Positions 2,289 through 27,440 of a stretch of DNA of 33,832 nt are shown here, one piece after another. The notes under the pieces are model-generated. The model was not told the origin of the DNA, did no database searches, and saw only the letters and a program-made list of their open reading frames with translations. The DNA comes from Amaricoccus sp. (GTDB lineage Bacteria; Pseudomonadota; Alphaproteobacteria; Rhodobacterales; Rhodobacteraceae). The first letter of the stretch is position 1, and each line of letters starts with the position of its first letter. Position numbers and translations under genes: made by a program. The stretch covers positions 1 to 33,832 of the forward strand of contig NZ_JAGOMQ010000039.1 in the NCBI RefSeq assembly GCF_017993425.1. The letters run 5' to 3'.

Positions 2289-2345
2289 GGCTAAGACTTT
2301 AACGAAGCGCCCCTCCGGGGCGACGAAAACGGAAGACAGCAAGTC

Positions 2346-3185: not shown

Positions 3186-3197
3186 GGAGCCCGGCAT

Positions 3198-3476: not shown

Positions 3477-3479
3477 GCC

Positions 3480-3863: not shown

Positions 3864-4576
3864 TGGGTCAGAAGATCAATCCGGTCGGTCTCCGGCTTCA
3901 GGTCAACCGCACCTGGGACAGCCGCTGGTTCGCCGACGGCAAGGACTACGGCAAGCTCTTGCACGAGGATCTGGCGATCCGCGACTTCGTCAAGAAGAAC
4001 GCGGCGCAGGCCGGCGTCAGCCGCGTGGTGATCGAGCGCCCGCACAAGAAGTGCCGGGTGACGATCCATGCCGCCCGTCCGGGCGTCATCATCGGCAAGA
4101 AGGGCGCCGACATCGAGGTGCTGCGCAAGAAGCTGGCGCAGTTCACGAAGTCGGAGCTGCACCTCAACATCGTCGAGGTCCGGAAGCCCGAGATCGACGC
4201 GGCGCTGGTCGCGGAGAACGTGGCCCAGCAGCTCGAGCGGCGGGTCAGCTTCCGCCGGGCGATGAAGCGGGCGGTGCAGAACGCCATGCGCATGGGCGCG
4301 CTCGGGATCCGGATCAACGTGGCCGGCCGCCTCGGCGGCGCGGAGATCGCGCGGACGGAGTGGTATCGCGAGGGCCGGGTGCCGCTGCACACGCTGCGGG
4401 CGGACATCGACTATGCGCTGGCGGAGGCGAAGACCGCCTACGGGATCATCGGGATCAAGGTCTGGATCTTCAAGGGCGAGATCCTCGAGCACGATCCGCA
4501 GGCCCGCGACCGGCGCCAGTCCGAGCTGCAGGAAGGCGGGGGCATGCGCCCGCAGCGCTCGCGCGAGCGGGCCTGA
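3863..4576 (+). CDS. rpsC: 30S ribosomal protein S3
   Basis: A 237-residue S3. It starts [12 protein letters not shown], has a KH domain around residues 40-110 with the [12 protein letters not shown] loop, and the conserved C-terminal domain [30 protein letters not shown] followed by [16 protein letters not shown]3 lies at the mRNA entry site of the 30S subunit. A short charged tail (DRRQSELQ... ending RSRERA) follows. It overlaps rplV by one base and precedes rplP by 20 nt. Confidence 0.98.
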
Positions 4577-5628: not shown

Positions 5629-6459
5629 TTACGGGATCGGGGTGAACTCGAGCTGGTCGAGGGGGACGACCTTGTCGGTGCGGGTCATCTTGAACTCGGT
5701 CTCCGGGCCGAGCCATTTGTTCCAGAGCTCGTTGATCTGGCCGGCCTCGTCCATGGCGAGGAGCGTCTCGTTGACCTTGGCGAGCAGCGCCGGCTCGCCC
5801 TGCTTCATGCCGATGCCGATCGGCTGGTAGACCATCGGCTCCTCGATCATCTTCAGGGGCACGCCCTTCGTCTGCGACTCGTTGACGAGCTTGGTGATCG
5901 TCATCGTGTTCGCCACCATGCCGCGCGCCTTGCCCTGCTGCACGGCCATGAAGGCCGAGCCGGTGTCCTGGAAGGTGAGCGGGTCGGACTCGTTGAGCTT
6001 GATCGCCATCTCGGAGGTCGAGCCCTTGGTCGAGGCGAGGCGCTTGCCGACGAAGTCGGCCTTGGCGCTGCCCGGATCGTCGGCCTTCACCGCCAGCATC
6101 TCCTTGGCGAGGTAGTAGGGGTCGGAGAACTGGATCTGCTCGGCGCGGCTGAGCGTGTAGGCAAGGTTGGCGATCGTCAGGTCGACGCCGCCGAGCTTCA
6201 CCTCGGGGACCCGGGCCTCGACCGAGAGCGGGTGGATGTCGGCGGCCACGCCCCAGCGCTCGGCGATCGCCTTGCACATGTCGACGTCGAAGCCGACCAT
6301 CTCGCGCGTCGCCGGGTCCGGCGCGGCGAACGGGTTCACGTCGGCGAAGGTGCCGCAACGGAGCACCTTGGCGGCCATGATGTCGTCGAGCTGGTCGGCG
6401 CGGGCCACGCCGGCGGCGCCGGCCGCGAGCACGGCGGCGAGAGCGAGGGTCTTCAGCAT
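5629..6459 (-). CDS. Polar amino acid ABC transporter, periplasmic binding protein
   Basis: A 276-residue family-3 solute-binding protein. Residues 1-22 form a signal peptide (MLKTLALAAVLAAGAAGVARA, cleavage before DQ). The mature part shows LRCGTFADVNPFAAPD, then MVGFDVDMCKAIAERWG, and later DLTIANLAYTLSRAEQIQFSDPYY, the typical ligand-pocket motifs of glutamate/glutamine/cystine-type binding proteins. It captures an amino acid in the periplasm and delivers it to the two permeases upstream. The ATG at 6459 follows AAGGGAGAT and begins the signal peptide; a longer open frame upstream is not credible. It is the last gene of its operon, 26 nt after the ATPase gene. The substrate cannot be read from sequence. 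Confidence 0.9.
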   Translation of the reverse strand: MLKTLALAAVLAAGAAGVARADQLDDIMAAKVLRCGTFADVNPFAAPDPATREMVGFDVDMCKAIAERWGVAADIHPLSVEARVPEVKLGGVDLTIANLAYTLSRAEQIQFSDPYYLAKEMLAVKADDPGSAKADFVGKRLASTKGSTSEMAIKLNESDPLTFQDTGSAFMAVQQGKARGMVANTMTITKLVNESQTKGVPLKMIEEPMVYQPIGIGMKQGEPALLAKVNETLLAMDEAGQINELWNKWLGPETEFKMTRTDKVVPLDQLEFTPIP

Positions 6460-6485
6460 GGGTGGATCTCCCTTGTTGGTTGGTT

Positions 6486-7247
6486 TCAGTGGCGGAGGTC
6501 GGACAGGAAGCGCTGCGCCCGCGGATGTTGCGGCGCGCGGAAGAAGGTCTCGGGGTCGGCCGTCTCGAGGATCTGCCCGGCGTCCATGAACCAGACACGG
6601 TCGGCGACGTCGCGGGCGAAGCCCATCTCGTGGGTGACGCACATCATCGTCATCCCCTCGGCGGCGAGACCCTTCATCACCGCCAGCACCTCGCCGACCA
6701 TCTCCGGGTCGAGCGCGCTCGTCGGCTCGTCGAAGAGCATCGCCGGCGGCTCCATGGCGAGCGCCCGGGCGATCGCGACGCGCTGCTGCTGGCCGCCCGA
6801 GAGCTGGCCTGGATAGGCGTCGGCCTTCTGGGCCAGGCCGACCCGGTCTAGGAGCGCCATCGCCTTCGCGCGGGCGACCTCGCGCTTCACGCCGCTGATC
6901 TTGACCGGCGAGAGCGTGACGTTCTCGAGCGTCGAGAGGTGCGGGAAGAGGTTGAAGCTCTGGAAGACGAAGCCGATGTGGCTGCGCAGCCGATTGAGCT
7001 CGCGCCGGCTCATGGCGGCATGCACGTCCTTGCCGTCGAAGAGGATCGACCCGGAGTTGATCTCCTCCAGCCGGTTGACGGTGCGGATCAGCGTCGACTT
7101 GCCGGAGCCCGACGGCCCGCAGACCACCACCACCTCGCCGCGCTTCACCTCGGCGTTGACGTCGGTCAGGGCTTGGTAGTCGCCGTACTTCTTGTTGACC
7201 TGTCGGAACTCGATCATGGGCGTCGCTCCCGTGGCGGTGGCGTTCAT
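6486..7247 (-). CDS. Polar amino acid ABC transporter, ATP-binding protein
   Basis: A 253-residue ATPase of the GlnQ/GltL type. Visible are Walker [10 protein letters not shown] (about 44-52), the Q-loop [11 protein letters not shown], the signature [15 protein letters not shown], Walker [15 protein letters not shown] and the switch histidine in VTHEMGFA. It powers import through the two permeases. The ATG at 7247 overlaps the stop of the preceding permease gene (ATGA); an internal ATG at 7217 (MIEFRQV) has GGGAG in front and is an alternative start giving 243 residues. No C-terminal regulatory domain is present. Confidence 0.92.
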
Positions 7248-7999
7248 GGCTCGGCGGTCAGGGCGCGGACGCCCAGGCTCGGCGGCATCGGCGGCGCGCC
7301 CCGGCCGGCGCGCTTGTCGGAGATCCGGCGCTCCAGCCAGATCGCGGCGCGGGTCAGGCTCCAGCAGATGATGAAGTAGGTGATCGCGAGGATCGCGAAG
7401 ACCTGGAAGGGCTGGGTCAGCAGCTGGTTGTTGATCTGGTTCGCCGCGAAGGTGAGCTCTGGCACGTTGATGACGTAGCCGAGGGTGGTCTCCTTGATGG
7501 TCGAGACGAACTGGCTGAGGATGCTCGGGATCATGTTGTAGAGCGCCTGCGGCAGGATCACCCAGGCCATCGCCCCGAGATAGGAATGCCCGAGCGAGCG
7601 CGCCGCCTCCATCTGGCCGCGGCCGAGGGCGACGATGCCGCCGCGGATGATCTCGCTGAGGAAGCACGCCTCGTAGATGACGAGGGTGATGAGCATCGCC
7701 ACGAACCCCGGAACCCGGGCGCCGAAGAGGAGCGGCGTGGCGAAGTAGACCCAGAAGATCAGCATGAGCAGCGGCACGCCGCGGGCGAAGTAGACCAGCG
7801 CCGTCGACGGCCAGAACAGCAGCCGCCAGGGCGAGAGCCGGGCGAGCGCGACGAGGATGCCGACCGGGAAGGCGAGCAGGATCGACAGCACCGAGAGGAT
7901 GAGCGTGGCGGCGACGCCGCCGAGCGGGCCGTTCGGATACTGGCCGACGAGGAGCAGCAGCCAGTTGTCGCGGACGATGGCGATGATGTCGGCGATCAT
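7244..7999 (-). CDS. Polar amino acid ABC transporter permease (GltK/GlnP type)
   Basis: A 251-residue membrane protein of the HisM/GlnP permease family, with several hydrophobic segments (for example [24 protein letters not shown] and [13 protein letters not shown]). It contains the cytoplasmic EAA loop [23 protein letters not shown] that docks to the ATPase. A hydrophilic tail follows residue 225. Together with the neighbouring permease it should form the channel. It starts 1 nt after the stop of the other permease gene and overlaps the ATPase gene at its end. Confidence 0.9.
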
Positions 8000-8000: not shown

Positions 8001-8702
8001 TCAGCGCCCTCCCGCCCGGGCGGCGCGCACCTGCAGGAAGGCGCCGACGGCCATCAGGGCGAGCGAGATCGCGAGGTAGAGAACCGTCGCGATGGTGTAG
8101 GCCTCGAACACCCGGAAGCTCAGGCTTTGCACCTCCTGCACCGCGTGGGTGAGCTCGGAGACGCCGATCGCCATCGCGAGGCTCGAGTTCTTGAAGAGCG
8201 AGACAGTGTGGTTGATGAGCGCGGGCAGCGCGTTCCTGACGGCCTGCGGCATCATGACGTAGCGCATCGCAGAGATGTGGCCGTGGCCGAGCGCCTTCGC
8301 CGCCTCGGCCTGGCCGGCCGGGATCGAGCGCAGGCCCGAGCGCAGGTCCTCGGAGAAGTAGGCCGCCTGGCAGAGGCCGAGGGCGATGACCGCGAAGATC
8401 GTCTCGCCGTTGTTGTCGCTCAGCCAGTACTGCATCGCCGTCGGCAGCAGCGCGAAGATGCCGAAATACCAGAGCATGAGCTGCACCAGCGTCGGCACGT
8501 TGCGGTGGTAGGAGATGTAGGCCGTCACCACCGCGTTCGGCAGCCGGCCGGGCAGCTGGCGGATGACGAGGAGCGTGATCCCGAGGCTCATGGCGAGGAG
8601 CCACGAGCCGACGAAGACGACGAAGGTGAACCGGATGCCCTCGCGCAGCATCGCCGCGTAGTCGGCATTCCCGAGGACTTCCCAGAGGTCGAAGCCTTCC
8701 AT
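8001..8702 (-). CDS. Polar amino acid ABC transporter permease (GltJ type)
   Basis: A 233-residue permease of the same family as its neighbour. It shows GIRFTFVVFVGSWLLAMSLGITLLVI as first membrane segment, the EAA loop EAAKALGHGHISAMRYVMMPQAVRNALPALINH, and a last membrane segment near the C-terminus (TIATVLYLAISLALMAVGAFL). SDR, permease, permease, ATPase and binding protein are transcribed leftward with gaps of at most 26 nt, so they probably form one unit. Confidence 0.9.
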   Translation of the reverse strand: MEGFDLWEVLGNADYAAMLREGIRFTFVVFVGSWLLAMSLGITLLVIRQLPGRLPNAVVTAYISYHRNVPTLVQLMLWYFGIFALLPTAMQYWLSDNNGETIFAVIALGLCQAAYFSEDLRSGLRSIPAGQAEAAKALGHGHISAMRYVMMPQAVRNALPALINHTVSLFKNSSLAMAIGVSELTHAVQEVQSLSFRVFEAYTIATVLYLAISLALMAVGAFLQVRAARAGGR

Positions 8703-8712: not shown

Positions 8713-9465
8713 TCAGGCGCTGACGGCTTCGGGGCGGGCGGTCTGGAGGCCGCCGGGCACCTGCAGGGTCGGGGTGATCTCCATGTGGCCGATGTTGACC
8801 GCGACGGGGGCGGCGATCGCGAAGGCGATGGCGTCGGCGATGTCCTTCGCTTCGGGCAGCTCGTAGCCGTCGATGAACTTCGCGCGGATCTCCGGGCTGT
8901 CGCCGTGGACGTGGGCGAAGATGTCGGTGGCGACGCGGCCGGGACAGATCTCGGTGACGCGGACGCGATGGCCGAAGGCGTCGATGCGGAGCTGGCGCGA
9001 CAGCATGCTCACCGCCGCCTTGGTGGCGTGGTAGATCGAGTTGCCGCCGAAGTTGTAGGCCCCGGCGATCGACGAGATGTTGACGACGTGGCCCCGGCCG
9101 CGGGCGACCATGCCGGGCACGACCAGGTGGCAGAGGTGGAGGACCGCGCGGAGGTTGACGTCGACGAGGAGGTCGATGTCCGCGGCGTCGCCCTTCAGCA
9201 GGCCCTTCGGCTTGTCGACGCCGGCGTTGTTCACGAGGACGTCGAACTCGGTCTCGCCCGCGAGGCGCGCCAGCGCCGCGGTGTCGCTGACGTCGATGGC
9301 GTGGGGAATGCAGCCCGTGCGTGCGGCGAGATCGGCGAGGGCGCCGGCGGAGCGCGCCAGCGCGTGGACCTGCAGGCCCTCGCGGGACAGGCGCTCGACC
9401 ACCGCGGCGCCGATACCGGAGGAGGCGCCGGTGACGAGAGCGGTCCGGTAATCCGAGAACGGCAT
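8713..9465 (-). CDS. Short-chain dehydrogenase/reductase (SDR)
   Basis: A 250-residue classical SDR. The nucleotide-binding TGASSGIG lies at about 12-19, NNAG at 79-82, and the catalytic Ser 131/132 with Y145-x3-K149 (YHATK). The later segment CPGRVATDIF is typical. It should be an NAD(P)-dependent oxidoreductase; related enzymes act on serine/3-hydroxy acids and sugars, and the substrate here is unknown. The ATG at 9465 has an excellent AAGGAGGT 7 nt before it, so the longer open frame to 9552 is rejected. It heads the transporter unit and is preceded by a Nac-type site. Confidence 0.85.
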   Translation of the reverse strand: MPFSDYRTALVTGASSGIGAAVVERLSREGLQVHALARSAGALADLAARTGCIPHAIDVSDTAALARLAGETEFDVLVNNAGVDKPKGLLKGDAADIDLLVDVNLRAVLHLCHLVVPGMVARGRGHVVNISSIAGAYNFGGNSIYHATKAAVSMLSRQLRIDAFGHRVRVTEICPGRVATDIFAHVHGDSPEIRAKFIDGYELPEAKDIADAIAFAIAAPVAVNIGHMEITPTLQVPGGLQTARPEAVSA

Positions 9466-9540
9466 GGGGGCGACCTCCTTCTGTTGTCCCGATGGTGCGG
9501 CTTCGGACGAAACGGCGCCAACACGGATTGTCACTGTAGC

Positions 9541-9557
9541 CATAAGCGGCACTTATG
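9541..9557. promoter_or_regulatory. Nac-type LysR operator before the SDR/transporter unit
   Basis: CATAAG-CGGCA-CTTATG is a perfect 6-bp inverted repeat with a 5-nt spacer. It contains ATA-N9-TAT, the site known for enterobacterial Nac. It lies between the pxpA stop and the SDR start; its centre is 84 nt before the SDR start codon. Two relatives occur at 14226-14242 and 15238-15254, flanking the LysR gene. Confidence 0.7.
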
Positions 9558-9568
9558 GTGGACGCGCG

Positions 9569-10336
9569 TTACTTGTGCAGTTGCGAAATCGGCGTCACCG
9601 TCCAGCCGGCGTCCTCGACCAGTCGTCTCAGCGCCTTGCCGAGCGCGACCGCGCCCGGCGTGTCGCCGTGCAGCAGGATGCTCTCGGGCTTCGCCGGCAG
9701 CAGCGTCCCGTCCCAGGTCTCGACGACACCGTCCTTCAGCAGCCGCCCGACTCTGGCGAGCACCGCCGCCTCGTCGTGGATCACCGCGCCGGGCTTGCCG
9801 CGGGGCACGAGGAGCCCGTCCTTGTCGCAGGCCCGGTCGGCGAGGAAGGTCGTCGCGACCCGGAGGCCGCAGCGGGCCGCGGCGGCCTCGATCGCCGTGC
9901 TCGGCGACGACGAGATGGTGAGGCCGTCGTCGAAGCGCGCCACCGCCTCGACCAGCGGCCCGGCGAGGGCCGGGTCGGCTGCGGTCATGTTGCCGAGCGC
10001 GCCGTGGAAGCTCATGTGCGTCATCGCGGCGCCCTCGGCGCGGGCGATGCCGGTGAGCGCCCCGAGCTGGTAGGTCACCATCGCCGCGAGCTCGGCGGGC
10101 GCGATCTGCATCGGGCGGCGGCCGAAGCCCTGGCGGTCGGGGAAGCCGACATGGGCGCCGACGTCGACGCCGCGCTCGCGCGCGACGCGGACGGTGCGCG
10201 CCATGATCACCGGGTCGCCGGCATGGAAGCCGCAGGCGACGTTCGCCGAGGAGACGATGGCGAGGAGCGCGTCGTCGTCGCCCATCGCCCAGGGCCCGAA
10301 GCCCTCGCCGAGGTCCGCGTTGAGGTCGATGCGCAT
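9569..10336 (-). CDS. pxpA: 5-oxoprolinase subunit A (LamB/YcsF family)
   Basis: A 255-residue LamB/YcsF protein. The family signature stands at both conserved blocks: DLNADLGEGFG (4-14) and SSANVACGFHAGDP (29-42), followed by GAHVGFPDRQGFGRR and FHGALGN. In bacteria PxpA with PxpB and PxpC opens 5-oxoproline to glutamate at the cost of ATP; PxpA is thought to be the hydrolytic, metal-using part. The ATG at 10336 follows GAGGAGGG at good spacing, so the five extra residues further upstream are not used. It is the last gene of the acc/pxp run, 11 nt after the BCCP-like gene. Confidence 0.93.
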   Translation of the reverse strand: MRIDLNADLGEGFGPWAMGDDDALLAIVSSANVACGFHAGDPVIMARTVRVARERGVDVGAHVGFPDRQGFGRRPMQIAPAELAAMVTYQLGALTGIARAEGAAMTHMSFHGALGNMTAADPALAGPLVEAVARFDDGLTISSSPSTAIEAAAARCGLRVATTFLADRACDKDGLLVPRGKPGAVIHDEAAVLARVGRLLKDGVVETWDGTLLPAKPESILLHGDTPGAVALGKALRRLVEDAGWTVTPISQLHK

Positions 10337-10347
10337 GGGGTCCCTCC

Positions 10348-10743
10348 TCAATCGTTCGGCAGGAAGTCGAACAGCCGGTCGCCGTAGCCGACGAGAGCGC
10401 CCTCCTCCGGCAGGGCCGCCACCACGATCCCGTCCGCCGGCGCCGGTACCGGCACCAGCAGCGCACCGATCCGGAGGAGCGCGATCGGCTGCCCGGCGAC
10501 GACCGCCTCGCCGTCGGCGGCGAGCGGCGCCTCATGGAGCGGATGCGCCCGCAGGAACGTCCCGAGCGACGGCGAGGTCACCGGCGCCACGTCCGGCTCC
10601 GGCAGCGTCGCCGACTCGGCGGCCGCCCCGACGGCGCCGCGCGACAGCGCGAGCGCGAAGTCGGGGCTGGTCAGCTCCAGGCGCCCGATCCCGGCCTCGG
10701 CCATCGCCTCGGCAAGCGCGGCGATCTCGTCCGGTCCCATCAT
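10348..10743 (-). CDS. BCCP-like protein lacking the biotin-attachment lysine
   Basis: A 131-residue protein. Its N-terminus (DEIAALAEAMAEAGIGRLEL) parallels that of the AccB protein encoded 3 kb upstream ([20 protein letters not shown]), and its C-terminal half has the beta-barrel pattern of a biotinyl domain (VVAGQPIALLRIG, then PAPADGIVVAALPEEG). Where AccB has EAMKVFNEI, this protein reads RIGALLVPV: aligning the two places Ala94 at the biotin lysine position. It therefore cannot be biotinylated in the normal way. The start ATG at 10743 overlaps the pxpC stop. A structural or docking role in the carboxylase/lactamase complex is my inference. Confidence 0.75.
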   Translation of the reverse strand: MMGPDEIAALAEAMAEAGIGRLELTSPDFALALSRGAVGAAAESATLPEPDVAPVTSPSLGTFLRAHPLHEAPLAADGEAVVAGQPIALLRIGALLVPVPAPADGIVVAALPEEGALVGYGDRLFDFLPND

Positions 10744-11720
10744 GCGGCCCTCCGTGCGCGGAGGAGAGCGGCGACGCGGCGCACCTCCGCCAGCCATGCC
10801 TCGACCTCTTCCCGCGCGGCCAGCGCGTCGGCCCAGTCGACGCGCCGGAAGCGAAAGCGCGTGCCGATCGGCATCTGCCCCAGGCGCCAGAGATCCGCCT
10901 CGATCACCGCGCCGACCTTGGGATAGCCGCCCGAGGGCTGGGCGTCGCACATCTGCACGATCGGCTGGCCGCTGTGCGGCACCTGGATCACGCCGGGGAC
11001 GATGCCATGCGAGCGCGTCTCGAGCGGCCGCGCGAGCTCCAGCCCCGGCCCGGCGAGGCGGAAGCCGTAGCGGTCGCTCTGCGGGGTGATCTTCCACGCC
11101 TCGTCCCAGAAGCTTTCGAGCGAGGTCGCGGTGAAGGCGCCGTACTCCGACGCCGGCAGCACCCGCACCGCCGGCAGCCCGTCCGCCTCCAGCGGCAGCG
11201 CGAGGCCGGGCGGCACGACGCCGGCGATCGCCGCCGCCTCCGGCGCCTCCCCGGCCGTCAGCCGGTCGCCCTGGCGCAGCATCCGCCCGTCGAGCCCGCC
11301 GATCGCGCCGCGGAGCTGGGTGCTGCGCGAGCCGAGCACCATCGGCACGTCGATCCCGCCCGCCACCGTGAGATAGGCCCGCGCCCCACGCCAGCGGCCG
11401 GCCTGCGGCAGCCCGAGCCGCAGCACCTGCCCGGCCCGCGCCCGGGCGCTCGCCCAGGGCAGGAGCGGCACGCCGTCGAGCGTGGCGGCGCAGTCGGCGC
11501 CGGTGACCGCGAAGGCGAGGTCGGCCTCGAAGCGCACCTCGAAGGGAAAGACCTGCGCCTCGACCCCGGCGGCGTCGTCGGCGTTGCCGAGGAGCAGGTT
11601 GCCGGCGACGAGCGCCAGCCGGTCCATCGCCCCGGCGGTGCCAACGCCCCAGCGCACCGCCTCGAAGCGCCCGAGGTCCTGCACGCTGGCGAAGGCGCTC
11701 TGCGACAGGATCTCGATCAT
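10740..11720 (-). CDS. pxpC: 5-oxoprolinase subunit C (KipA / AHS2 family)
   Basis: A 326-residue protein of the KipA/allophanate-hydrolase-subunit-2-like family. Landmarks are SVQDLGRFEAVRWGVGTAGAMDR at the N-terminus, then GGIDVPMVLGSRST, SDRYGFRLAGP and the C-terminal HGIVPGVIQVPHSGQPIVQMCDAQPSGGYPK. With PxpB it forms the unit that resembles the carboxyltransferase part of urea carboxylase. It overlaps pxpB by four bases upstream and the BCCP-like gene downstream, so the complex is probably made in coupled translation. Confidence 0.92.
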   Translation of the reverse strand: MIEILSQSAFASVQDLGRFEAVRWGVGTAGAMDRLALVAGNLLLGNADDAAGVEAQVFPFEVRFEADLAFAVTGADCAATLDGVPLLPWASARARAGQVLRLGLPQAGRWRGARAYLTVAGGIDVPMVLGSRSTQLRGAIGGLDGRMLRQGDRLTAGEAPEAAAIAGVVPPGLALPLEADGLPAVRVLPASEYGAFTATSLESFWDEAWKITPQSDRYGFRLAGPGLELARPLETRSHGIVPGVIQVPHSGQPIVQMCDAQPSGGYPKVGAVIEADLWRLGQMPIGTRFRFRRVDWADALAAREEVEAWLAEVRRVAALLRARRAA

Positions 11721-12373
11721 TTCAGGATCTCCGCCACGCGGAACACGATGCTGTCGCCGGGCTGCAGCAGCACCGGCGGGTCGCGGGTGGCGTCGAAGAA
11801 CACCATCTCCGTGGCGCCGATGGTGTTCCAGCCGCTCGGCCCGTCCGAGGCCGAGACACCCGTCTGCGCCCCGCCGATCGACACCGCGCCGCCGGGGATG
11901 CGCAGCACCGGCACCTTGCGGCGCGGCGTGGCGATCCGCGGGTCCATGCCGCCGAGGTAGCAGTAGCCGGGATGGCTGCCGAGCGCATAGACCGGGTAGA
12001 CTGGGCCGGCGTGGATCGCGACGATCTCGTCGATCGGGAGGCCGGTATGCGCCACCACGTCGGCCATGTGCGGCCCGCCGTCGCCGCCGTACGTCACCGG
12101 CAGCTCGACCACCCGCCCGTCGAGCGGCAGCGCCACTGCTTCCTCCCAGGCCCCGACGAGCCGCGCCTCCAGCGGCTCCAGGCGCTGCGGCGGCGTGGCG
12201 AGGCTCAGGAGCAGGTTGTTCACCCCCGGCACCGCCTCGCGCACCTCCGGCCAGGTGGCCGCCTCGCGCGACAGCGCCCAGATCCGCTGCTGGCAGGCGA
12301 GGCTCGTCTCGCCCGGAGCCTCGAAGAGCAGCGCGCTCGTCCCGAGGACGCTCACCACCGGCTTGTCGCTCAT
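11717..12373 (-). CDS. pxpB: 5-oxoprolinase subunit B (KipI / AHS1 family)
   Basis: A 218-residue KipI-type protein. It contains [10 protein letters not shown] (the residue block typical of the N-terminal half), [22 protein letters not shown], and the C-terminal signature [42 protein letters not shown]. It partners PxpC. The start ATG at 12373 overlaps the accC stop (ATGA) and is preceded by GGAAGGAGA; an open frame extending much further upstream only shadows accC. Confidence 0.92.
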
Positions 12374-13722
12374 CGCCCGGCGTCTCCTTCCAGCATCCGC
12401 GTCAGGTGGTGGATGTCGACCCCGCCGGCGACGAAGCCCGGGTCCGCCACGATCCGCCGGTGCAGCGCGAGGTTCGTCGCCACCCCGTCGACCCGCGCCT
12501 CGGCGAGGGCGCCGCGGAGCCGCGCCAGCGCCTCGTCGCGGGTCGCGCCGTGGGCGATGACCTTGGCGATCAGCGAATCGTAGTAGGGCGGCACCTTGCC
12601 CCCGGCCGCCATGTGGGTGTCGACCCGGATCCCCGGCCCCCCGGGCATCTCGAACCGCGTCACCGTTCCGGGCGAGGGTGCGAAGGTCTCCGGATCCTCG
12701 GCGTTGATCCGCGCCTCGAAGGCGTGGCCGCGGCAGGCGACGTCTCCTTGAGCGAAGGAGAGCGGCAGCCCCTGTGCCACCCGGATGCCCTCGCGGACGA
12801 TGTCGACGCCGGTCGTCTCCTCGGTGATAGGGTGCTCGACCTGGACGCGGGTGTTCATCTCGATGAAGGCGAAGACGCCGTCCTCGTAGAGGAACTCGAA
12901 GGTGCCGGCGCCCTCGTAGCCGATCTGCCGGCACGCCTCGGCGCAGCGCTCGCCGATCTCGGCGACGAGGCCCGCGTCGAGCCCCGGCGCGGGCGCCTCC
13001 TCCAGCACCTTCTGGTGCCGCCGCTGCAGCGAGCAATCGCGGCTGCCGAGCCAGACCGCCTGCCCGTGGCGGTCGGCGATCACCTGGATCTCGACGTGCC
13101 GCGGATGGGTCAGGAACTTCTCGACATAGATCTCGGGGTTGTTGAACGCGCGTCGCGCCTCCTCGCGGGTGACGACGAGCGCCTCGGCGAGCCCGGCCGC
13201 ATCCTTCACCACCCGCATTCCGCGGCCGCCGCCGCCGCCGGCGGCCTTGAGGATCACCGGGTAGCCGAGCCCCTCGACGATCCCGCGCACCGCGTCGATG
13301 TCGTCGGGCAGGCCGGCGTCCGGCCCGGGAACGCAGGGCACGCCCGCCCGGATCATCGCGCCCTTGGCGGCCACCTTGTCGCCCATGGTGCGGATGCAGC
13401 CGGCCGGCGGCCCGATGAAGGTTCGCCCCGCGCGCGTCACCGCCTCGGCGAAGTCGGCGTTCTCGGAGAGGAAGCCGTAGCCCGGATGGATCGCCCCGGC
13501 CCCGGTCGCCTCGGCCGCGAGCAGGATCGCCGCGGGGTCGAGGTAGGACCGCGCCGCCGGCGACGGCCCGATGCAGACAGCGACGTCGGCGGCCCGCACG
13601 TGCGGCGCCTCGCGGTCGGCCTCGGAGTGCGCCGCGATCGTGCGGAGCCCGAGGGCGCGGGCGGCGCGCTGGATCCGAAGCGCGATCTCGCCACGGTTGG
13701 CAATGAGCACGGAATCGAACAT
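12370..13722 (-). CDS. accC: Biotin carboxylase subunit (AccC type)
   Basis: A 450-residue biotin carboxylase. It opens [17 protein letters not shown], has the ATP-grasp glycine loop GGGGGRGM (162-169) and [14 protein letters not shown] (288-301). With the ATG at 13722, key residues fall at the E. coli AccC positions: K159, H209, E276, E288 and R292. That supports this start over the GTG at 13731 that overlaps the accB stop. The enzyme carboxylates biotin on a carrier protein using ATP and bicarbonate. Its place between accB and pxpB suggests a specialised carboxylase, not the housekeeping acetyl-CoA carboxylase. Confidence 0.9.
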
Positions 13723-13727
13723 GAGCC

Positions 13728-14147
13728 TCACTCGATGCGGAGGAGCAGCTGGCCGGCCTCGACCTCGTCGCCCGACGCGACCTCGATCGCCGCGACCGTC
13801 CCGTCGCGCTCGGCACGGATCTCGTTGAAGACCTTCATCGCCTCGATGACCGCGACCACGTCGCCGGCCGCAGCGCGCGTCCCCATGGCGACGAACGGGG
13901 GCGCTCCCGGGGCGGGGCTCAGGTAGACGAGCCCCGCGAGCGGCGCCCTTACCCCGCCCTCAGCCCCCGGCCGTGCCGGCGCCGCCGGCCGCGGTCGTTC
14001 CGCCCGCCGGGGCCCGGGGACCGCCGCGACGCCGCCGTCCGCCGCGCGCACGAGGCGCAGCGTCCACTCCCCGCGGGTCAGGGTCATCTCCGCCAGACCG
14101 GAGGTGGTGAAAGACGCCATCAGTGCCTTGATCTCGTCGAGGTCCAT
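13728..14147 (-). CDS. accB: Biotin carboxyl carrier protein
   Basis: A 139-residue BCCP. The C-terminal biotinyl domain carries EAMKVFNEI with biotin-acceptor Lys105, preceded by the Pro/Ala-rich linker (about residues 40-65) usual in AccB and a short N-terminal helical part. It should carry CO2 as carboxybiotin from AccC to the PxpB/PxpC unit. It is the first gene of the leftward acc/pxp run; a Nac-type site lies with its centre 87 nt before the start codon. A purine-rich AAAGGGCGCGCG precedes the ATG. Confidence 0.92.
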
Positions 14148-14225
14148 CGCGCGCCCTTTCGGTCGGTCTGCCGGAAGGGTAGCGGACGCCGCCTTGTCCC
14201 CGCCAAGACGGATCGTCTCTGCCTC

Positions 14226-14242
14226 GATAAGCCTCTCTTATG
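14226..14242. promoter_or_regulatory. Nac-type LysR operator before accB
   Basis: ATAAG-CCTCT-CTTAT (14227-14241) is a perfect 5-bp inverted repeat holding ATA-N9-TAT. It lies in the 116-nt gap between the end of the LysR gene and accB, 87 nt (centre) before the accB start, nearly the same distance as the copy before the SDR gene. Confidence 0.7.
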
Positions 14243-14263
14243 TCGGGCGGCGCGCCCCGGCGG

Positions 14264-15220
14264 TCAGGATGGCGGGGCGACCCGCCGCCGTCTCGGCCTG
14301 CGTCCCGCTGGCGCCGGCGAAGCCCCCGGCAGCGCGGCGGCGAGCTCCATCAGCACGTCCTTCACCGCCTGCGCCGGCTCCGACAGTGGCAGTTGGTCCG
14401 ATTGGCAGAGCGCCAGCGGCGCCTCGATCGACGGCTCGACGATCCGCGCCCGCCAGCCGCCGGTCGCCGCCACCACGCGACGCGCCATCGAGGCCGGCAG
14501 GATCGTCGCGCCGAGCCCCTCGCCGATCACCGCGGTCAGGGTCCCGTCCGATTCGATTTCCGCAACGACGTGCGGCGCGAGGCCCGACCCGGAGCAGGCG
14601 TCGTTCACCATCTTGCGGACGATGTTGTAGGGCCGCGGCAGCACCAGGTCGAGATCGACGACGTCGCCGAGCGCCACCGTCTCCCCGGGCTTCTCCATCG
14701 CCCCCGGCCCGACGAGGTAGAGCGGCTCGAGCTGCAGGAGCTGGAACGACAGTCCGTGTACCGCCGTCGTCCCCCCGTAGAGCACCGCGAGGTCCATGCG
14801 CCCGGTCATGATGAGCTCCGAGAGCGTCGTGCCGTAGGTCTCGTTGAGATAGAGCACGATACCGGGATGCCGCTCCCGCACCGCGCGCAACAGCGGCATC
14901 GCCAGGTCGGCCGCCGCCGTGCCCGGCGCGAGCCCGACCGAGACGGCGCCGGAGAGCCCCTGGCCCGCAGCGTTCATGTCCGCCCGCGCCTGCTCCACCT
15001 GCCGCAGGATCAGCTGCGCGTGCCGGTAGAGCGCGGTGCCCGCCGCCGTCGGCGTCACCCCGCGCTTGGTCCGCACCAGCAGCTGCTGGCGCACCTCGGC
15101 CTCGAGCGCGAGGATCTGCTGGCTGAGCGCGGGTTGCGCGACGTGCAGCAGGTCGGCGGCCTGGGTCATGCTGCCGACGTCGACGATCTTCACGAAGCAC
15201 TGCAGGCGCCTGAAGTTCAT
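14264..15220 (-). CDS. LysR-type regulator closely resembling Nac
   Basis: A 318-residue LysR regulator. The N-terminal helix-turn-helix (about residues 18-40) reads MTQAADLLHVAQPALSQQIL, followed by RTKRGVTPTAAG. The start MNFRRLQCFVKIVDVGS and the segment VSVGLAPGTAA are, from memory, very like enterobacterial Nac, the nitrogen assimilation control protein. The effector-binding domain runs from about residue 93; the last 20 residues are Arg/Pro-rich (RRPRRRR), which is unusual. It is transcribed away from the aminotransferase gene and towards accB. A Nac-type site sits 26 nt before its start, fitting autoregulation. Confidence 0.88.
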   Translation of the reverse strand: MNFRRLQCFVKIVDVGSMTQAADLLHVAQPALSQQILALEAEVRQQLLVRTKRGVTPTAAGTALYRHAQLILRQVEQARADMNAAGQGLSGAVSVGLAPGTAAADLAMPLLRAVRERHPGIVLYLNETYGTTLSELIMTGRMDLAVLYGGTTAVHGLSFQLLQLEPLYLVGPGAMEKPGETVALGDVVDLDLVLPRPYNIVRKMVNDACSGSGLAPHVVAEIESDGTLTAVIGEGLGATILPASMARRVVAATGGWRARIVEPSIEAPLALCQSDQLPLSEPAQAVKDVLMELAAALPGASPAPAGRRPRRRRVAPPS

Positions 15221-15237
15221 CCTTCGCCCCGCTCACC

Positions 15238-15254
15238 CATAAGCGATCCCTATG
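15238..15254. promoter_or_regulatory. Nac-type LysR operator between LysR gene and aminotransferase gene
   Basis: CATAAG-CGATC-CCTATG differs from a perfect inverted repeat at one position and keeps ATA-N9-TAT. It lies between divergent genes: 26 nt (centre) before the LysR start on the - strand and 95 nt before the aminotransferase start on the + strand. Such a position would let one bound regulator repress itself and act on the divergent genes. Confidence 0.68.
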
Positions 15255-15340
15255 TAAGCAGAGCGAAGCCGTCTTGGCCACGGCCGTGTCGGCGGGAGTA
15301 GCGTCCGGACATCCAACGGGTCACGACCGGGAGAAGGGCC

Positions 15341-16546
15341 TTGGGCATCCACGTTTCCGAGCGCGTCCGGCGCATCAAGCCGTCGCCGAGCACCGCCGCC
15401 GCCGACCGCGCCAACGCGCTTCGCCGCGAAGGCCGCTCGATCGTCAGCCTCGTCGTCGGCGAGCCCGACTTCGACACGCCCGCCCCGATCCGCGAGGCCG
15501 CCGCGAAGGCGATGGACGCCGGCGCCACCCGCTACACCACGCTCGCCGGCACCCCGGAGCTCCGCAAGGCCATCGCCGACAAGCTCCGGCGCGAGAACGG
15601 CATCGAGTTCGACCCTTCCGAGATCGTCGTGACGAACGGCGCCAAGAGCGCGATCTACGCCGCCTTCGCCGCTACCCTCGACGAAGGCGACGAGGTGATT
15701 GTCCCGGCGCCCTACTGGGTGTCCTACCCCGACGCCGCCCTCGCCTGCGACGGTGTCCCCGTGGCGGTCGCCTGCCCCGAGGAGCAGGGCTTCAAGCTCA
15801 CCTCCGCCCAGCTCGAGGCGGCGATCACGCCCCGGACCCGCTGGCTGGTCCTCAACTCGCCCTCGAACCCGACCGGCGCCACCTACACCGCCGACGAGTA
15901 CCGGGCGCTGGCGAAGGTCCTCGCCCGCCACCCGGACGTCATGGTGATGACCGACGACATCTATGAGCACATCCGCTTCGCCAACGGCGTCGCGCCGCAC
16001 CTGCTCGCCGCCGCGCCGGAGCTCCGCGACCGCACCCTCGCGATCAACGGCGTCTCCAAGACCTACGCAATGACCGGTTGGCGCATCGGCTGGGCCGCCG
16101 GCCCGCGCGACCTCATTCGCGCCCTCGACACCCTGCTCTCGCAGGCGGCCGGCAACGCCTGCTCGGTCAGCCAGGCCGCCGCCGCCGCGGCGCTCAATGG
16201 CGACCAGTCCTTCGTCGCCGAAAGCGTCGCCACCTACCGCGCCCGCCGCGACAAGACCGCGGCCGGAATCAACGCCATCCCCGGCCTCTCCTGCCGCATC
16301 CCCGAGGGCGCCTTCTACCTCTACGTCAACTGCGCCGACCTGATCGGCCGGACCACGCCCGAGGGCAAGCGTCTGGCCGAGGACGGCGACGTCGTCCTCT
16401 ACCTGCTCGAGCGCGCTGGCGTCGCGGTGGTCGCCGGCGCCGCCTACGGCCTCTCGCCCTATTTCCGCCTGTCGATCGCCACGTCGCAGGACGTCCTCGA
16501 CGAGGGCGTGAAGCGCATCGCCGCCGCCGTCGCCGACCTCCGCTGA
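15341..16546 (+). CDS. Class I PLP-dependent aminotransferase (aspartate aminotransferase type)
   Basis: A 401-residue class I aminotransferase. It shows VKP-like RIKPSPSTAA at the N-terminus, LVVGEPDFDTP (substrate/cofactor loop), NSPSNPTGA (173-180), DDIYEH, the PLP lysine K240 in NGVSKTYAMTGWR, and the C-terminal arginine in YFRLSIAT. It should exchange amino groups between an amino acid and 2-oxoglutarate or a similar acceptor. The start is a TTG at 15341 with GGAGAAGGG just upstream; no ATG occurs near, and the N-terminus aligns with the family at this point. A Nac-type site lies upstream. Confidence 0.92.
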   Translation: MGIHVSERVRRIKPSPSTAAADRANALRREGRSIVSLVVGEPDFDTPAPIREAAAKAMDAGATRYTTLAGTPELRKAIADKLRRENGIEFDPSEIVVTNGAKSAIYAAFAATLDEGDEVIVPAPYWVSYPDAALACDGVPVAVACPEEQGFKLTSAQLEAAITPRTRWLVLNSPSNPTGATYTADEYRALAKVLARHPDVMVMTDDIYEHIRFANGVAPHLLAAAPELRDRTLAINGVSKTYAMTGWRIGWAAGPRDLIRALDTLLSQAAGNACSVSQAAAAAALNGDQSFVAESVATYRARRDKTAAGINAIPGLSCRIPEGAFYLYVNCADLIGRTTPEGKRLAEDGDVVLYLLERAGVAVVAGAAYGLSPYFRLSIATSQDVLDEGVKRIAAAVADLR

Positions 16547-16557: not shown

Positions 16558-17214
16558 ATGACCATCGAGAAGAACCCGAGCGCCCCCTCCGTCGCGCCCG
16601 AGCTGCTGGAGCGCCTCCGCGACCTCCAGGTCGCCCTGATCAGCGACCAGCTGCACCGCAACCAGGGCTTCGCCGGCCTCCGCCCCTACCACAAGCCGAG
16701 CCCCCTCGCCGGCACGGCCGTCACCGTGCGCACCCGCGCCGGCGACAACCTCGCGATCCTGCGCGCCTTCGAGTTCTGCCGCCCCGGCGACGTGATGGTG
16801 GTCGACGCCGACGGCGACTGCGCCAACGCGCTCGTCGGCGGCATCCTCACCTTCTACGCCGCCTCGATCGGCATGGCCGGCATGGTGCTGAACGGCGCCA
16901 TCCGCGACACCGCCGAGATCGCCGAGCGCACCTTCCCGGTCTACGCCGCCGGCCACACCCACCGCGGCCCCTACAAGGACGGCCCCGGCGCGATCAACGT
17001 GCCCGTCACCCTCGGCGGCATGACCGTCCGCCCCGGCGACATCGTCGTCGGCGACCAGGACGGCCTCCTCGCCTTCCCGCCGGAGCAGGCCGAGGACCTG
17101 ATTGCCAAGGCGATCGTCCACCGCGAGAAGGAAGAGGCGACCATCGCCGCGATGAAGGCCGGGCGCTGGGACCGCGCCTTCATCGACACGCTCGAAGCCC
17201 GCGCGATCAACTGA
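16558..17214 (+). CDS. RraA-like / HMG-aldolase-family protein
   Basis: A 218-residue protein of the RraA/4-hydroxy-4-methyl-2-oxoglutarate aldolase superfamily. Residues VVDADGDCANALVGGILTFYAA and the block GMVLNGAIRD (R116-D117, the magnesium and oxalacetate-binding pair) are characteristic, followed by PGDIVVGDQDG. Members cleave 4-hydroxy-2-oxo acids or decarboxylate oxaloacetate; others bind RNase E. In this catabolic setting an aldolase/decarboxylase role is likelier. It starts 12 nt after the aminotransferase stop with TGAGGAA as binding site, so it is probably cotranscribed. Confidence 0.85.
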   Translation: MTIEKNPSAPSVAPELLERLRDLQVALISDQLHRNQGFAGLRPYHKPSPLAGTAVTVRTRAGDNLAILRAFEFCRPGDVMVVDADGDCANALVGGILTFYAASIGMAGMVLNGAIRDTAEIAERTFPVYAAGHTHRGPYKDGPGAINVPVTLGGMTVRPGDIVVGDQDGLLAFPPEQAEDLIAKAIVHREKEEATIAAMKAGRWDRAFIDTLEARAIN

Positions 17215-17224: not shown

Positions 17225-18256
17225 ATGCGCGCCGTCGTCATCCACGCCGCCCGCGACCTGCGCATCGAGGAGCGCGCCCCCGAGACGGCCGGTCCCGGCG
17301 AGGTCGAGGTCGCGATCGAGGCCGGCGGCATCTGCGGCTCCGACCTCCACTACTACGCCCACGGCGGCTTCGGGACCGTGCGCCTGCGCGAGCCGATGAT
17401 CCTCGGCCACGAGGTCGCCGGCCGCGTCATCGCCGTCGGCGAGGGCGTCGCCGGCCTCGCCGCGGGCGACCGGGTCGCCGTCTCGCCGAGCCGGCCGTGC
17501 GGCGCCTGCGCCTACTGCCTCGAGGGCCTGCCGAACCATTGCCTCGACATGCGCTTCTATGGTTCGGCCATGCCCTTCCCGCACATCCAGGGCGCCTTTC
17601 GCGAGCGCCTTGTCGCCCGCGCCTCCCAGTGCCACAAGGTCGCGGACGGCGTCGCGATCGGCGAGGCCGCCCTCGCCGAGCCCTTCGCGGTCACCCTCCA
17701 CGCCCTCTCGCGCGCCGGCTCGCTCCTCGGCAGGCGCGTGCTCGTCACCGGCTGCGGCCCGATCGGCGCGCTGGCGATCATCGCCGCCCGTGCCCACGGC
17801 GCCCGCGAGATCGTCGCGACCGACGTCGCCGACGGCGTCCTCGCCTTCGCGCGGAGGGTCGGGGCCGACCGCACCATCAACGTCGCCACCGACGCCGACG
17901 CCCTCGCCGCCTACGGCGCGAACAAGGGCAGCTTCGACGTGCAGTTCGAGGCCTCCGGCAACGCCGCCGCGATCCGCGCCGGCCTCGACGTCCTGCGCCC
18001 GCGCGGCGTCCTCGTCCAGCTCGGCCTCGGCGGCGACATCGCCATCCCGCAGAACCTCGTCGTGGCGAAGGAGATCGAGCTCCGCGGCACCTTCCGTTTC
18101 CATGCCGAATTCGGCCTCGCGGTCGACCTCATCAACGCGCGTCGGGTCGACCTCTCGCCGCTCCTGACCGGCACCTGGCCCGTCGCCGAGGCAGTCGCCG
18201 CCTTCGAGGCCGCCGGCGACCGCAGCCGCTCGATGAAGGTCCAGATCGCCTTCTGA
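17225..18256 (+). CDS. idnD: Zinc-dependent L-idonate 5-dehydrogenase-type alcohol dehydrogenase
   Basis: A 343-residue medium-chain dehydrogenase. Catalytic zinc ligands are C37 (GGICGSDLHYY) and H62-E63 (GHEVAGRV); structural zinc cysteines are C92, C95, C98 and C106. The stretch DMRFYGSAMPFPHIQGAF closely resembles E. coli IdnD (DMRFFGSAMYFPHVDGGF, from memory). A Rossmann GxGPIG motif lies in TGCGPIGALAI. The expected reaction is L-idonate to 5-keto-D-gluconate with NAD(P). It follows the RraA-like gene by 10 nt and has GAGGAG before its ATG. L-sorbitol- or xylitol-type dehydrogenase activity is a less likely alternative. Confidence 0.88.
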   Translation: MRAVVIHAARDLRIEERAPETAGPGEVEVAIEAGGICGSDLHYYAHGGFGTVRLREPMILGHEVAGRVIAVGEGVAGLAAGDRVAVSPSRPCGACAYCLEGLPNHCLDMRFYGSAMPFPHIQGAFRERLVARASQCHKVADGVAIGEAALAEPFAVTLHALSRAGSLLGRRVLVTGCGPIGALAIIAARAHGAREIVATDVADGVLAFARRVGADRTINVATDADALAAYGANKGSFDVQFEASGNAAAIRAGLDVLRPRGVLVQLGLGGDIAIPQNLVVAKEIELRGTFRFHAEFGLAVDLINARRVDLSPLLTGTWPVAEAVAAFEAAGDRSRSMKVQIAF

Positions 18257-18298: not shown

Positions 18299-19051
<753 letters not shown>

Positions 19052-19067: not shown

Positions 19068-19619
19068 ATGGGGGTCTCCGGCTGCGGCAGGTCCACGGTC
19101 GGGGCCGCCCTCGCCGCGGCGCTCGGCCGCCCTTGCCGCGAGGGGGACGCGCTCCGCCCGGCCGCGAACGTGGCGAGGATGGCCGCCGGCATCCCCCCTC
19201 GACGACGCCGACCGCTGGCCCTGGCTCGACAGCGTCGCCGCGGCCCTCGCCAAGGGCGGCGTCGTCTCCTGCTCGGCGCTGACGCGCAGCTACCGCGCGC
19301 GCCTGCGCGCCTGCGCCCCGGGGAAGCAGCTCCTGGATCGCCGTCCCCTCCGCAGCTATCGCGCGCGCCCGCGCTCCGGCGCAGGACGGCCGGTCGCCTT
19401 CGTGTGCCTGCGCGGGGCTGCCCGGCGCTCCTCGCCGACCGCGTGGGCGCGCGAGCCGGCCACTTCATGCCGCCCTCGCGGCTGGCGCGCCAGCTCGCCA
19501 CCCTCGATGATCCTTCCGGCGAGCCCGGCGCCGTCACCGTCGACATCGACCGCCCCCTCGCCGCCGCCGCAGTCGCCGCCCTCGGCGCCGCTGCCCCTGA
19601 CCCGGAGACCCGCCCGTGA
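19068..19619 (+). pseudogene. Gluconokinase, broken by frameshifts and lesions
   Basis: The region encodes gluconate kinase in pieces. MGVSGCGRSTVGAALAAALG through NVARMAAGIP lies in one frame; an extra C in the C6 run at 19193-19198 shifts LDDADRWPWL and CSALTRSYRARLRACAPG into the next; a further shift near 19415 restores the first frame for ALLADRVGARAGHFMPPSRL to VTVDIDRPL. About 20 foreign residues interrupt the protein near 19320-19380. The Walker A lysine (GCGKST) is Arg. It would have phosphorylated gluconate after IdnO. Several independent lesions make a simple sequencing error unlikely. Confidence 0.85.
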
Positions 19620-20548
19620 CCAAGCCGACCGTCCTCATGACCGGCGCCTATCCCGCCTGGGATCTCGACGACCTCGAGGCCAACTACCGCGTCCTGAAGC
19701 TCTGGGAGGCGCCGGACGCGGACGCCTTCCTCGCCGAGCACGGGGCTGAGGTGCGCGCCGTCGCCACCCGCGGCGACCTCGGCGCCTCGGCGGCGCTGAT
19801 GCGCGCGCTGCCGAAGCTCGAGATCGTCGCCTGCTACGGCGTCGGCACCGACGCGATCGACCTCGCCCATGCCCGCGCCGCCGGCGTCCGGGTGACGAAC
19901 ACGCCCGACGTCCTCACCGCCGACGTCGCCGACATGGCCGTCGCGCTGCTCCTCGCCGCCGCCCGGCTGATCCCGCAGGGCGACGCCGAGATCCGCCGCG
20001 GCGGCTGGGCGATGCCGCTCACCACCCGCGTCACCGGCAAGGCGGTCGGCATCGTCGGCATGGGCCGGATCGGCAGCGCCGTCGCGAAGCGCCTCGCCGC
20101 CTTCGACTGCGACATCGCCTATTTCGGCCGCAGCCGGCGCGACGATGCGCCCTACGCCTTCGAGCCCGACCTCCTCGCCCTTGCCCGGCGCTCGGAGTTC
20201 CTGGTCCTCACCCTCGCCGCCAGCGACGCCACCCGCGGCCTGATCGACGCCGCCGTTCTCGACGCTCTCGGCCCGGACGGAATCCTCGTCAACGTCTCCC
20301 GCGGCTCGACCGTCGACGAGCCTGCGCTCCTGGCCGCCCTGGAAGCCGGCAGGATCAAGGCCGCCGGCCTCGACGTATTCCTGAACGAGCCCGGGATCGA
20401 CCCGCGCTTTGCGGCCCTGCCGAACGTCGCCCTGGCGCCGCACCACGCCTCCGGCACCATCGAGACGCGCAAGGCGATGGGCCAACTCGTCCGCGACAAC
20501 CTCGCCGCCCATTTCGAGGGCCGCGCTCTCGCGACGCCTGTGGCCTGA
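19616..20548 (+). CDS. D-2-hydroxyacid dehydrogenase (GhrB / 2-ketogluconate reductase-like)
   Basis: A 310-residue NAD(P)-dependent D-2-hydroxyacid dehydrogenase. ACYGVGTDAIDL, the Rossmann motif GMGRIG (148-153), NVSRGS with catalytic R229, FLNEP with E258, and APHHASGT with catalytic H276 are all present. Family members reduce glyoxylate, hydroxypyruvate or 2-ketogluconate; next to idnD/idnO, a keto-gluconate substrate is plausible. The GTG start overlaps the gluconokinase stop (GTGA), a relic of coupled translation. It is the last gene of the + strand run that begins at 15341. Confidence 0.88.
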   Translation: MTKPTVLMTGAYPAWDLDDLEANYRVLKLWEAPDADAFLAEHGAEVRAVATRGDLGASAALMRALPKLEIVACYGVGTDAIDLAHARAAGVRVTNTPDVLTADVADMAVALLLAAARLIPQGDAEIRRGGWAMPLTTRVTGKAVGIVGMGRIGSAVAKRLAAFDCDIAYFGRSRRDDAPYAFEPDLLALARRSEFLVLTLAASDATRGLIDAAVLDALGPDGILVNVSRGSTVDEPALLAALEAGRIKAAGLDVFLNEPGIDPRFAALPNVALAPHHASGTIETRKAMGQLVRDNLAAHFEGRALATPVA

Positions 20549-22818: not shown

Positions 22819-22829
22819 GGGGAGGTCCC

Positions 22830-24662: not shown

Positions 24663-24679
24663 CCTTCCCCCCCTGTCCT

Positions 24680-27430: not shown

Positions 27431-27440
27431 GGCTCTGGCC

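Follow-up and report, generated by a model that had tools for sequence, protein, structure and literature searches.

A Nac-like LysR regulator and a composite operator conserved at three promoters of a pxp-type catabolic cluster from Amaricoccus

Background

The LysR-type regulator Nac of Klebsiella and E. coli recognizes DNA with the core ATA-N9-TAT and activates transcription from about position -64, and LysR-type catabolic activators of the BenM/CatM type act through a recognition site and an activation site. Both bear on a 33,832-nucleotide stretch of DNA from Amaricoccus sp. (NZ_JAGOMQ010000039.1, a complete 33.8 kb contig from a 4.24 Mb genome; "the window" below), in which the gene for a Nac-like LysR protein lies among three operons, and in which each of these operons is preceded by one and the same composite operator.

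Local control of pxpABC together with a transporter is described for Corynebacterium glutamicum: pxpTABC is derepressed by substrate and its regulator, PxpR, is a GntR repressor (PMC13274462). The paper also states that, to its authors' knowledge, the regulation of bacterial 5-oxoproline metabolism had previously been unstudied. Lactam rings are also opened by the ATP-dependent hydantoinase/oxoprolinase HyuAB/CapAB, and CapAB is reported to be unlike PxpABC by sequence (PMC8453981). A search of the open literature, with most subscription papers outside its reach, found neither LysR nor Nac control of a pxp or hydantoinase cluster, and no list of Nac sites.

The Amaricoccus locus differs from the PxpR system in having a LysR protein with the geometry of an activator, and in the addition of AccBC, an aminotransferase and aldolase-like genes. 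Its upstream palindrome, its promoter-proximal half-site overlapping the -35 and its divergent position are those of the BenM/CatM type, from which it departs in that three separate operons stand under one rigid composite operator kept across classes. With Nac it shares the LysR subfamily (NCBI model NF008410), a similar helix-turn-helix (HTH) and the ATA-N9-TAT core; the differences are the lack of a sigma54/NtrC promoter in the window, the neighborhood (Klebsiella nac adjoins cbl), the confinement of the operator to linked promoters in relatives, and an added GTCTTGG half-site.

A probable local switch for three operons

It is quite probable, judging from sequence comparison, that the LysR protein, of the Nac subfamily, is a pathway-specific activator and a local catabolic switch. 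The operons under its control would be those for the aminotransferase, an aldolase-like protein and dehydrogenases; for accB-accC-pxpB-pxpC-bccp-pxpA; and for a short-chain dehydrogenase/reductase (SDR) with an amino-acid-type ABC transporter. Dimers of the regulator would bind a palindrome, ATARG-N5-CYTAT, centered about 64 nt upstream of the predicted transcription start, together with a GTCTTGG half-site overlapping the -35, and would contact RNA polymerase at a sigma70-type promoter upon binding an inducer, probably either the ring compound after import or the product of its opening. The enzymes may then import a 5-oxoproline-like lactam and open its ring by means of biotin carboxylase and the Pxp proteins, after which the resulting amino acid would be transaminated and the 2-oxo acid split or oxidized.

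Such a switch would give a clear-cut operator, and a regulon open to experimental test, to a subfamily annotated in databases as "nitrogen assimilation regulator NAC", a name that is probably misleading in alpha- and betaproteobacteria. It also gives a starting point for finding the substrate of a biotin carboxylase-Pxp module present in several classes, and suggests a possible evolutionary route by which a global nitrogen regulator could arise from a local one.

The composite operator

The original prediction described three palindromes containing ATA-N9-TAT, with centers 84, 87 and 95 nt before the start codons of the SDR, accB and aminotransferase genes and 26 nt before that of the LysR gene. 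The sites lie exactly where they were placed, at exactly those distances: ATAAGCGGCACTTAT upstream of the SDR gene, ATAAGCCTCTCTTAT upstream of accB and ATAAGCGATCCCTAT upstream of the aminotransferase gene (coordinates in Table 1). They are the only three occurrences of ATA-N9-TAT in the window, where 0.09 would be expected and where none of 100 shuffles reached three; ATAAG-N5-CTTAT with up to two mismatches is also found three times (0.65 expected; three reached by 3 of 100 shuffles). The rarity of the palindrome in the whole genome held for the longer motif and failed for the bare core. Exact ATAAG-N5-CTTAT occurs twice, both times in the window; with one mismatch allowed it occurs at five places, three of them in the window (backwards control 2), and ATARG-N5-CYTAT at four, again three in the window (control 0). 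Bare ATA-N9-TAT was tried as a genome-wide marker and discarded as uninformative, at 56 matches versus 47 in the backwards control, so the information must be carried by the longer motif and not by the Nac core alone.

The original prediction did not include a second conserved block, GTCTTGG, which lies at +18 to +24 after each palindrome (as GTGTTGG before the SDR gene) and completes a composite operator of 39 bp, ATARG-N5-CYTAT-N5-CA-N10-GTCTTGG, the second part of which overlaps the inferred -35. When sites are stacked on their palindromes, CA at +6/+7 and GTCTTGG at +18 to +24 keep a fixed spacing in all three promoter classes; the block varies to GTGTTGG or GTCTTAG, and to GTCTTAT in enteric SDR promoters. 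A position weight matrix (PWM) derived from loci other than the window and the related Amaricoccus locus ranks the three window sites far above both the next window position (-4.3) and the highest score in 100 simulated windows (10.1). Leaving out each of nine lineages in turn, the matrix recovered that lineage's own sites every time, most weakly (17-28) those of the enteric loci. The spacing of the half-sites is equally strict: among 23 cluster loci (437,376 bases, near-copies included), ATARG-Nk-CYTAT is found 46 times at k = 5 and 0 or 1 times at each of the 12 other spacers from 0 to 12.

Column information was counted over 40 rows, without the near-copies L022, L023, L025 and L110, the accB site of L027, and the weak enteric and Burkholderia sites. 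The half-sites hold 1.4-1.8 bits (1.1 where CT and CC alternate), the N5 core 0.1-0.5, and the 5' flank at most 0.4 except for its last base (0.9). A -35 resembling TTGGCN overlaps GTCTTGG and, as read from the columns, a likely -10 (a TA...T box) follows about 18-19 nt further on, which would put the palindrome near -65 and the half-site over the -35; both parts are conserved over the 40 sites. At the divergent promoter the ATAAG half-site is distal to the aminotransferase side and CCTAT promoter-proximal in 13 of 13 stacked loci (with the RraA-like gene in that place in L106).

A genome scan with a matrix of the sites, proposed along with the original prediction, was carried out by pattern only, using the composite at up to three mismatches and backwards controls. 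The Amaricoccus genome has eight matches (control 0): three in the window, two at the operons of a paralogous regulator, two copies of one sequence, and one on contig C59. Beyond the window, the next match (two mismatches) and one of the four with three mismatches are the paralogue operators. The C59 match (C59:103861-103899; three mismatches), a partial composite, lies 629 nt from a LysR-like match that contains two stops.

The operator in other bacteria

Relatives were drawn from named genomes, which gave 15 loci, nine of them with this cluster (L019-L027), and further loci came from a plasmid collection and other genomes. The closest named relative of the cluster is in an Amaricoccus metagenome-assembled genome (MAG), with a LysR protein 85% identical. 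In alpha-, beta- and gammaproteobacteria the same cluster bears the signal at the same three promoters. The composite is found at all three in 11 of the 17 group-A loci (the window, L019, L020, L021, L022, L024, L026, L027, L105, L106 and L111), which span Amaricoccus, Variovorax, Hyphomicrobiales, Bradyrhizobium, Microvirga and Pseudomonas congelans. The site is retained in L024, where the SDR operon is nonetheless inverted, and in Microvirga L106, where the RraA-like gene has replaced the aminotransferase gene as first in its operon. L023 and L025 have two sites each, the SDR promoter lying beyond the contig end, and in Burkholderia L107 there are two strong sites as well as two decayed ones, before the aminotransferase and alcohol dehydrogenase genes. 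All seven nac-type loci lack a composite PWM match of at least 10.

Two of these loci have peculiarities of their own. In L027 (Bradyrhizobium sp. Gha; 9001-11690) accB/accC are matched in pieces, in part inverted, the SDR match is limited to residues 1-160 and the match to the regulator has a frameshift close to its end; the three operators remain. L106 has a fourth composite-like site (L106:19840-19878), 148 nt before the second SDR gene, possibly a gain to the regulon.

Genome-wide, two Variovorax, Pseudomonas congelans and one Hyphomicrobiales MAG (3.1 to 7.9 Mb) have exactly three composites each; all 12 are at these three promoters with at most two mismatches, and the backwards controls gave 1, 1, 4 and 0. 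The plasmid records gave 3 versus 2 in the control for Bradyrhizobium, 4 versus 0 for Microvirga, 4 versus 0 for Burkholderia and 2 versus 1 for Rahnella. A Klebsiella record has one match, at three mismatches, versus 7 in the control, which is not above background; for three genomes of group f187 the counts were 2 versus 7 (G783), 3 versus 5 (G730, one of the three elsewhere) and 2 versus 1 (G870, both at the cluster).

Distances were taken from the palindrome center to the start codon, with starts in relatives extrapolated from tblastn. The distance to the aminotransferase gene is 90-99 nt in 12 loci, and that to the SDR gene 80-87 nt in 14 of 19 loci and 99-124 in the other five; that to the regulator gene ranges from 26 to 183 nt over 13 loci. 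The tight aminotransferase distance beside the wide regulator distance indicates that the divergent site is positioned to serve the aminotransferase promoter. The 26 nt that had been taken for an autoregulatory position is therefore not conserved, and autoregulation was dropped as a conserved design; it may still happen, and it does not fix the site. The proposal that the three units form one circuit stood up as regards three promoters, one operator and one geometry across the three classes, and found no support in its further claim of a nitrogen regulon.

The NAC cut-off is exceeded in 2 of 289 genomes of the class. Matches to the regulator at 1e-60 occur in 3 of 248 genomes of the family, the two others being 44% identical and the same-genus G417 having none. 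In the phylum 17 of 398 genomes have a match, 12 of these in group f187. In the plasmid collection, some records of which are chromosome-sized (e.g., Klebsiella and E. coli, 4.8-5.4 Mb), 231 records have a match at 1e-60, with an identity of 60-80% in 12. This patchy distribution is read as that of a cassette moving between replicons.

Points against local control, and other explanations

Several observations weigh against a single local switch. The enteric copies (L108 from Rahnella, L091 and L094) have two strong sites and no strong third one, and the weak site that L091 and L094 have in the gap before the binding-protein/pxpB operon is oriented away from that operon. Four of the six distant group-B loci (L101, L102, L104, L110) retain only the SDR site above a PWM score of 10, L100 has one match of 15.1 and L103 none of at least 10. 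The distance to accB is more variable than the others (87-220 nt, 13 loci), the -10 box before the window's SDR gene is poor, and three composites with three mismatches, two being copies of one sequence, lie outside both clusters of the Amaricoccus genome. The PxpC-like protein falls below its equivalog cut-off, so that the substrate may be something other than 5-oxoproline itself. The regulator genes of the enteric copies are preceded by sigma54-like and NtrC-like elements (10/10 and 12/12 in Rahnella, 10/10 and 9/12 in L094, 9/10 and 10/12 in L091), the NtrC-like sites being above chance in two (9/12 in L094 was reached by 52 of 300 simulated sequences); the wiring thus differs between lineages.

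These enteric elements, the passing of the NAC equivalog and the 47 of 65 HTH residues shared with Klebsiella Nac would suit a true nitrogen regulon, in which NtrC and sigma54 would drive production of an alphaproteobacterial Nac in nitrogen-limited cells and this Nac would activate the operons when ammonium is short. We consider this unlikely. Before the window regulator the best sigma54 match with both core dinucleotides is 6/10, equalled in 376 of 500 simulated sequences (7/10 in a looser scan without the core rule), and the best NtrC match is 7/12, equalled in 300 of 300. An input from sigma54 and NtrC was accordingly rejected for the window, and the nitrogen control that had been predicted is left unsupported. 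The seven nac-type genes have sigma54-like elements of 8-10/10 and NtrC-like sites of 10-11/12. Four non-enteric cluster loci reach 8/10 for sigma54 (L020, L110, L026 and L111, with 15, 27, 43 and 61 of 500 simulated sequences as good), none of which was counted as a promoter, the match in L020 and L111 lying 12-13 nt before the start codon; a sigma54 promoter is possible in Pseudomonas L026 or rhizobial L110. Neither did a genome-wide nitrogen regulon appear, the Amaricoccus composites being three in the window, two at the paralogue promoters and three strays, and the operator being limited to one cluster in the four relatives' genomes. Moreover, a nac-type copy (L092) coexists with a cluster-linked one (L091) in G870.

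The same counts make it very unlikely that the regulator is a global one binding ATA-N9-TAT elsewhere too, with the three sites merely the visible part: the 56 core matches would allow this, but the backwards control nearly equals them, the only composites outside the two paralogous clusters are the three strays, and each of the four relatives has exactly three. That the palindromes belong to a different regulator, or are a chance-spread repeat to which the LysR protein is unrelated, is most improbable. Binding of the LysR protein to them is a prediction, and the operators of the hydantoinase-type paralogue resemble these, so that the binding partner is not to be told from sequence alone; yet across plasmids and several classes the sites accompany this LysR subfamily, in gaps beside the regulator gene. 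As to a repeat, the half-sites are conserved and the N5 core and 5' flank hardly so, which argues for selection rather than recent copying.

Relation to Nac

The predicted membership of the Nac family is supported: the regulator is well above the cut-off of NF008410, and the HTH identity given above (residues 1-65) rises to 56-59 of 65 in beta- and gammaproteobacterial cluster-linked copies. The hydantoinase-type paralogue of the same genome passes the model as well (313.6 bits), which indicates that the model spans regulators with several functions.

In an outgroup-rooted tree, from which the long-branched L100 was left out, the seven nac rows form a clade of their own (99/93) and join the three enteric cluster-linked rows (99/97). 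The window is in a separate alpha/beta clade (99/97), not with Klebsiella and E. coli Nac. L093 was counted with nac since it adjoins amn- and MatE-type genes, amn being a neighbor of nac; yeeO was also seen near nac. We call the f187 genomes G563, G730, G783, G802, G867 and G870 enteric on account of their nac-type genes. Holding all 22 cluster-linked rows together was not rejected, at an approximately unbiased p value (p-AU) of 0.078 (0.126 in an earlier tree). Nac, which joins the enteric cluster-linked copies in the free tree while the constraint is not rejected, may thus derive from a catabolic regulator; the free tree nests it there, but that p-AU led us to reject this as clean proof.

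We put forward, as a tentative scheme, that Nac evolved from a local activator of lactam-opening catabolism and that the window represents an older state without nitrogen input, a Nac-type protein and operator serving three linked operons. The enteric gene might have gained its sigma54/NtrC promoter while still attached to the cluster (as in Rahnella, G730 and G870), a duplicate then becoming the free-standing global Nac, and the regulator-aminotransferase core might also have been recruited to an unrelated enzyme for ring opening, hydantoinase A/B.

The hydantoinase-type paralogue and the substrate

A second Nac-like regulator of the Amaricoccus genome (contig C98; L098:3981-16366) is found with a paralogue of the aspartate-transaminase-type aminotransferase (AspAT), a Liv-type transporter, hydantoinase A/B, and an HpcH-type aldolase, so that HyuAB-like genes here adjoin the paralogues of both the regulator and AspAT. 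Two operators of the same composite plan lie before its hydantoinase and transporter operons. Among eight such loci, an AspAT homologue stands beside the regulator in six (L030-L033, L098, L099) and was not seen in L028 and L029; an HpcH/HpaI-type aldolase gene is also present in six, L029 and L099 ending just beyond hyuB; and a pair of composite-like operators occurs in six, with none in L029 or L099. L033 is labelled Frankia, a label that may be wrong, its regulator being very near the one in Bradyrhizobium L030 (branches of 0.014 and 0.041 in the tree).

Many pxp clusters bear, in place of the HpcH/HpaI-type aldolase, an RraA-like protein, the nearest solved relative of which is a 4-carboxy-4-hydroxy-2-oxoadipate aldolase; it was not seen in the clusters of Pseudomonas L026, Rahnella L108 and L094. 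The combination of ring opening, transamination and aldol cleavage with a glyoxylate-reductase-like enzyme would suit a lactam of the hydroxylated 5-oxoproline type, and it is conceivable, if rather doubtful, that the substrate is such a lactam, giving a 4-hydroxy-2-oxo acid.

Genes of the cluster

The operators and genes of the three operons are collected in Table 1. By curated models PxpA and PxpB are over their cut-offs, and PxpC is below that of its equivalog. AccC, PxpC and AccB also show similarity to parts of urea carboxylase (TIGR02712), which suggests a split biotin carboxylase-carboxyltransferase that would act on a ring amide together with PxpA. The nearest named relatives of the RraA-like protein are 4-carboxy-4-hydroxy-2-oxoadipate aldolases, with a score below the aldolase equivalog NF006731 (130 versus 179 bits).

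Table 1. Operators and genes of the cluster in the window (scores in bits, given against the cut-off of the model)
Feature	Position	Strand	Basis and remarks
Composite operator 1, aminotransferase operon; also 26 nt before regulator start	15239..15277	+	palindrome 15239-15253, CA 15259-15260, GTCTTGG 15271-15277; 0 mismatches; leave-out PWM 35.8
Composite operator 2, upstream of accB	14203..14241	-	palindrome 14227-14241; 0 mismatches; leave-out PWM 40.2
Composite operator 3, upstream of SDR-transporter operon	9518..9556	-	palindrome 9542-9556; 1 mismatch; leave-out PWM 37.5
Nac-like LysR regulator, 318 aa	14264..15220	-	NCBIfam NF008410 439.6 vs 309; HTH residues 1-65
Aspartate-transaminase-type aminotransferase (AspAT)	15341..16546	+	NF004769 685.4 vs 617
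RraA-like protein	16561..17214	+	PF03737; 3noj 7.6e-28; frame open from 16561; start codon uncertain
Zinc alcohol dehydrogenase, L-idonate 5-dehydrogenase-like	17225..18256	+	NF007375 355.5 vs 469, below cut-off
SDR oxidoreductase 2	18299..19051	+	NF005711 458.7 vs 413
2-Hydroxyacid dehydrogenase, glyoxylate/hydroxypyruvate reductase-like	19616..20548	+	NF009714 210.2 vs 455, below cut-off
AccB-like biotin carrier	13728..14147	-	EAMKV biotin site (motif); TIGR00531 96.4 vs 115.2, below cut-off
AccC-like biotin carboxylase	12370..13722	-	TIGR00514 628.6 vs 626.5
PxpB	11717..12373	-	TIGR00370 178.6 vs 145.55
PxpC-like biotin-dependent carboxyltransferase-type subunit	10740..11720	-	TIGR00724 310.8 vs 230.2; PxpC equivalog 282 vs 500, below cut-off
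Second biotin carboxyl carrier protein (BCCP)-like protein	10348..10740	-	no Met-Lys biotin site (motif); TIGR00531 33.7 vs 115.2, below cut-off
PxpA	9569..10336	-	NF003814 (subfamily) 329.2 vs 226
SDR oxidoreductase 1, first gene of transporter operon	8713..9465	-	relatives 67-89% identical, L103 56%
ABC permease 1	8001..8702	-	PF00528
ABC permease 2	7244..7999	-	PF00528
ABC ATPase	6486..7247	-	PF00005
Family-3 amino-acid-type solute-binding protein	5629..6642	-	PF00497; frame opens at GTG 6642, true start probably further in

The second BCCP-like protein of the pxp operon is without a Met-Lys biotin site, whereas AccB retains EAMKV. Ribosomal protein genes of the L3/L2/S3 kind lie near the catabolic cluster, at 521-4576. 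The stretch 21907-33622 holds a sugar- or inositol-type cluster with xylose-isomerase-like TIM barrels, a PfkB-DUF2090 fusion, an ABC importer and a LacI regulator.

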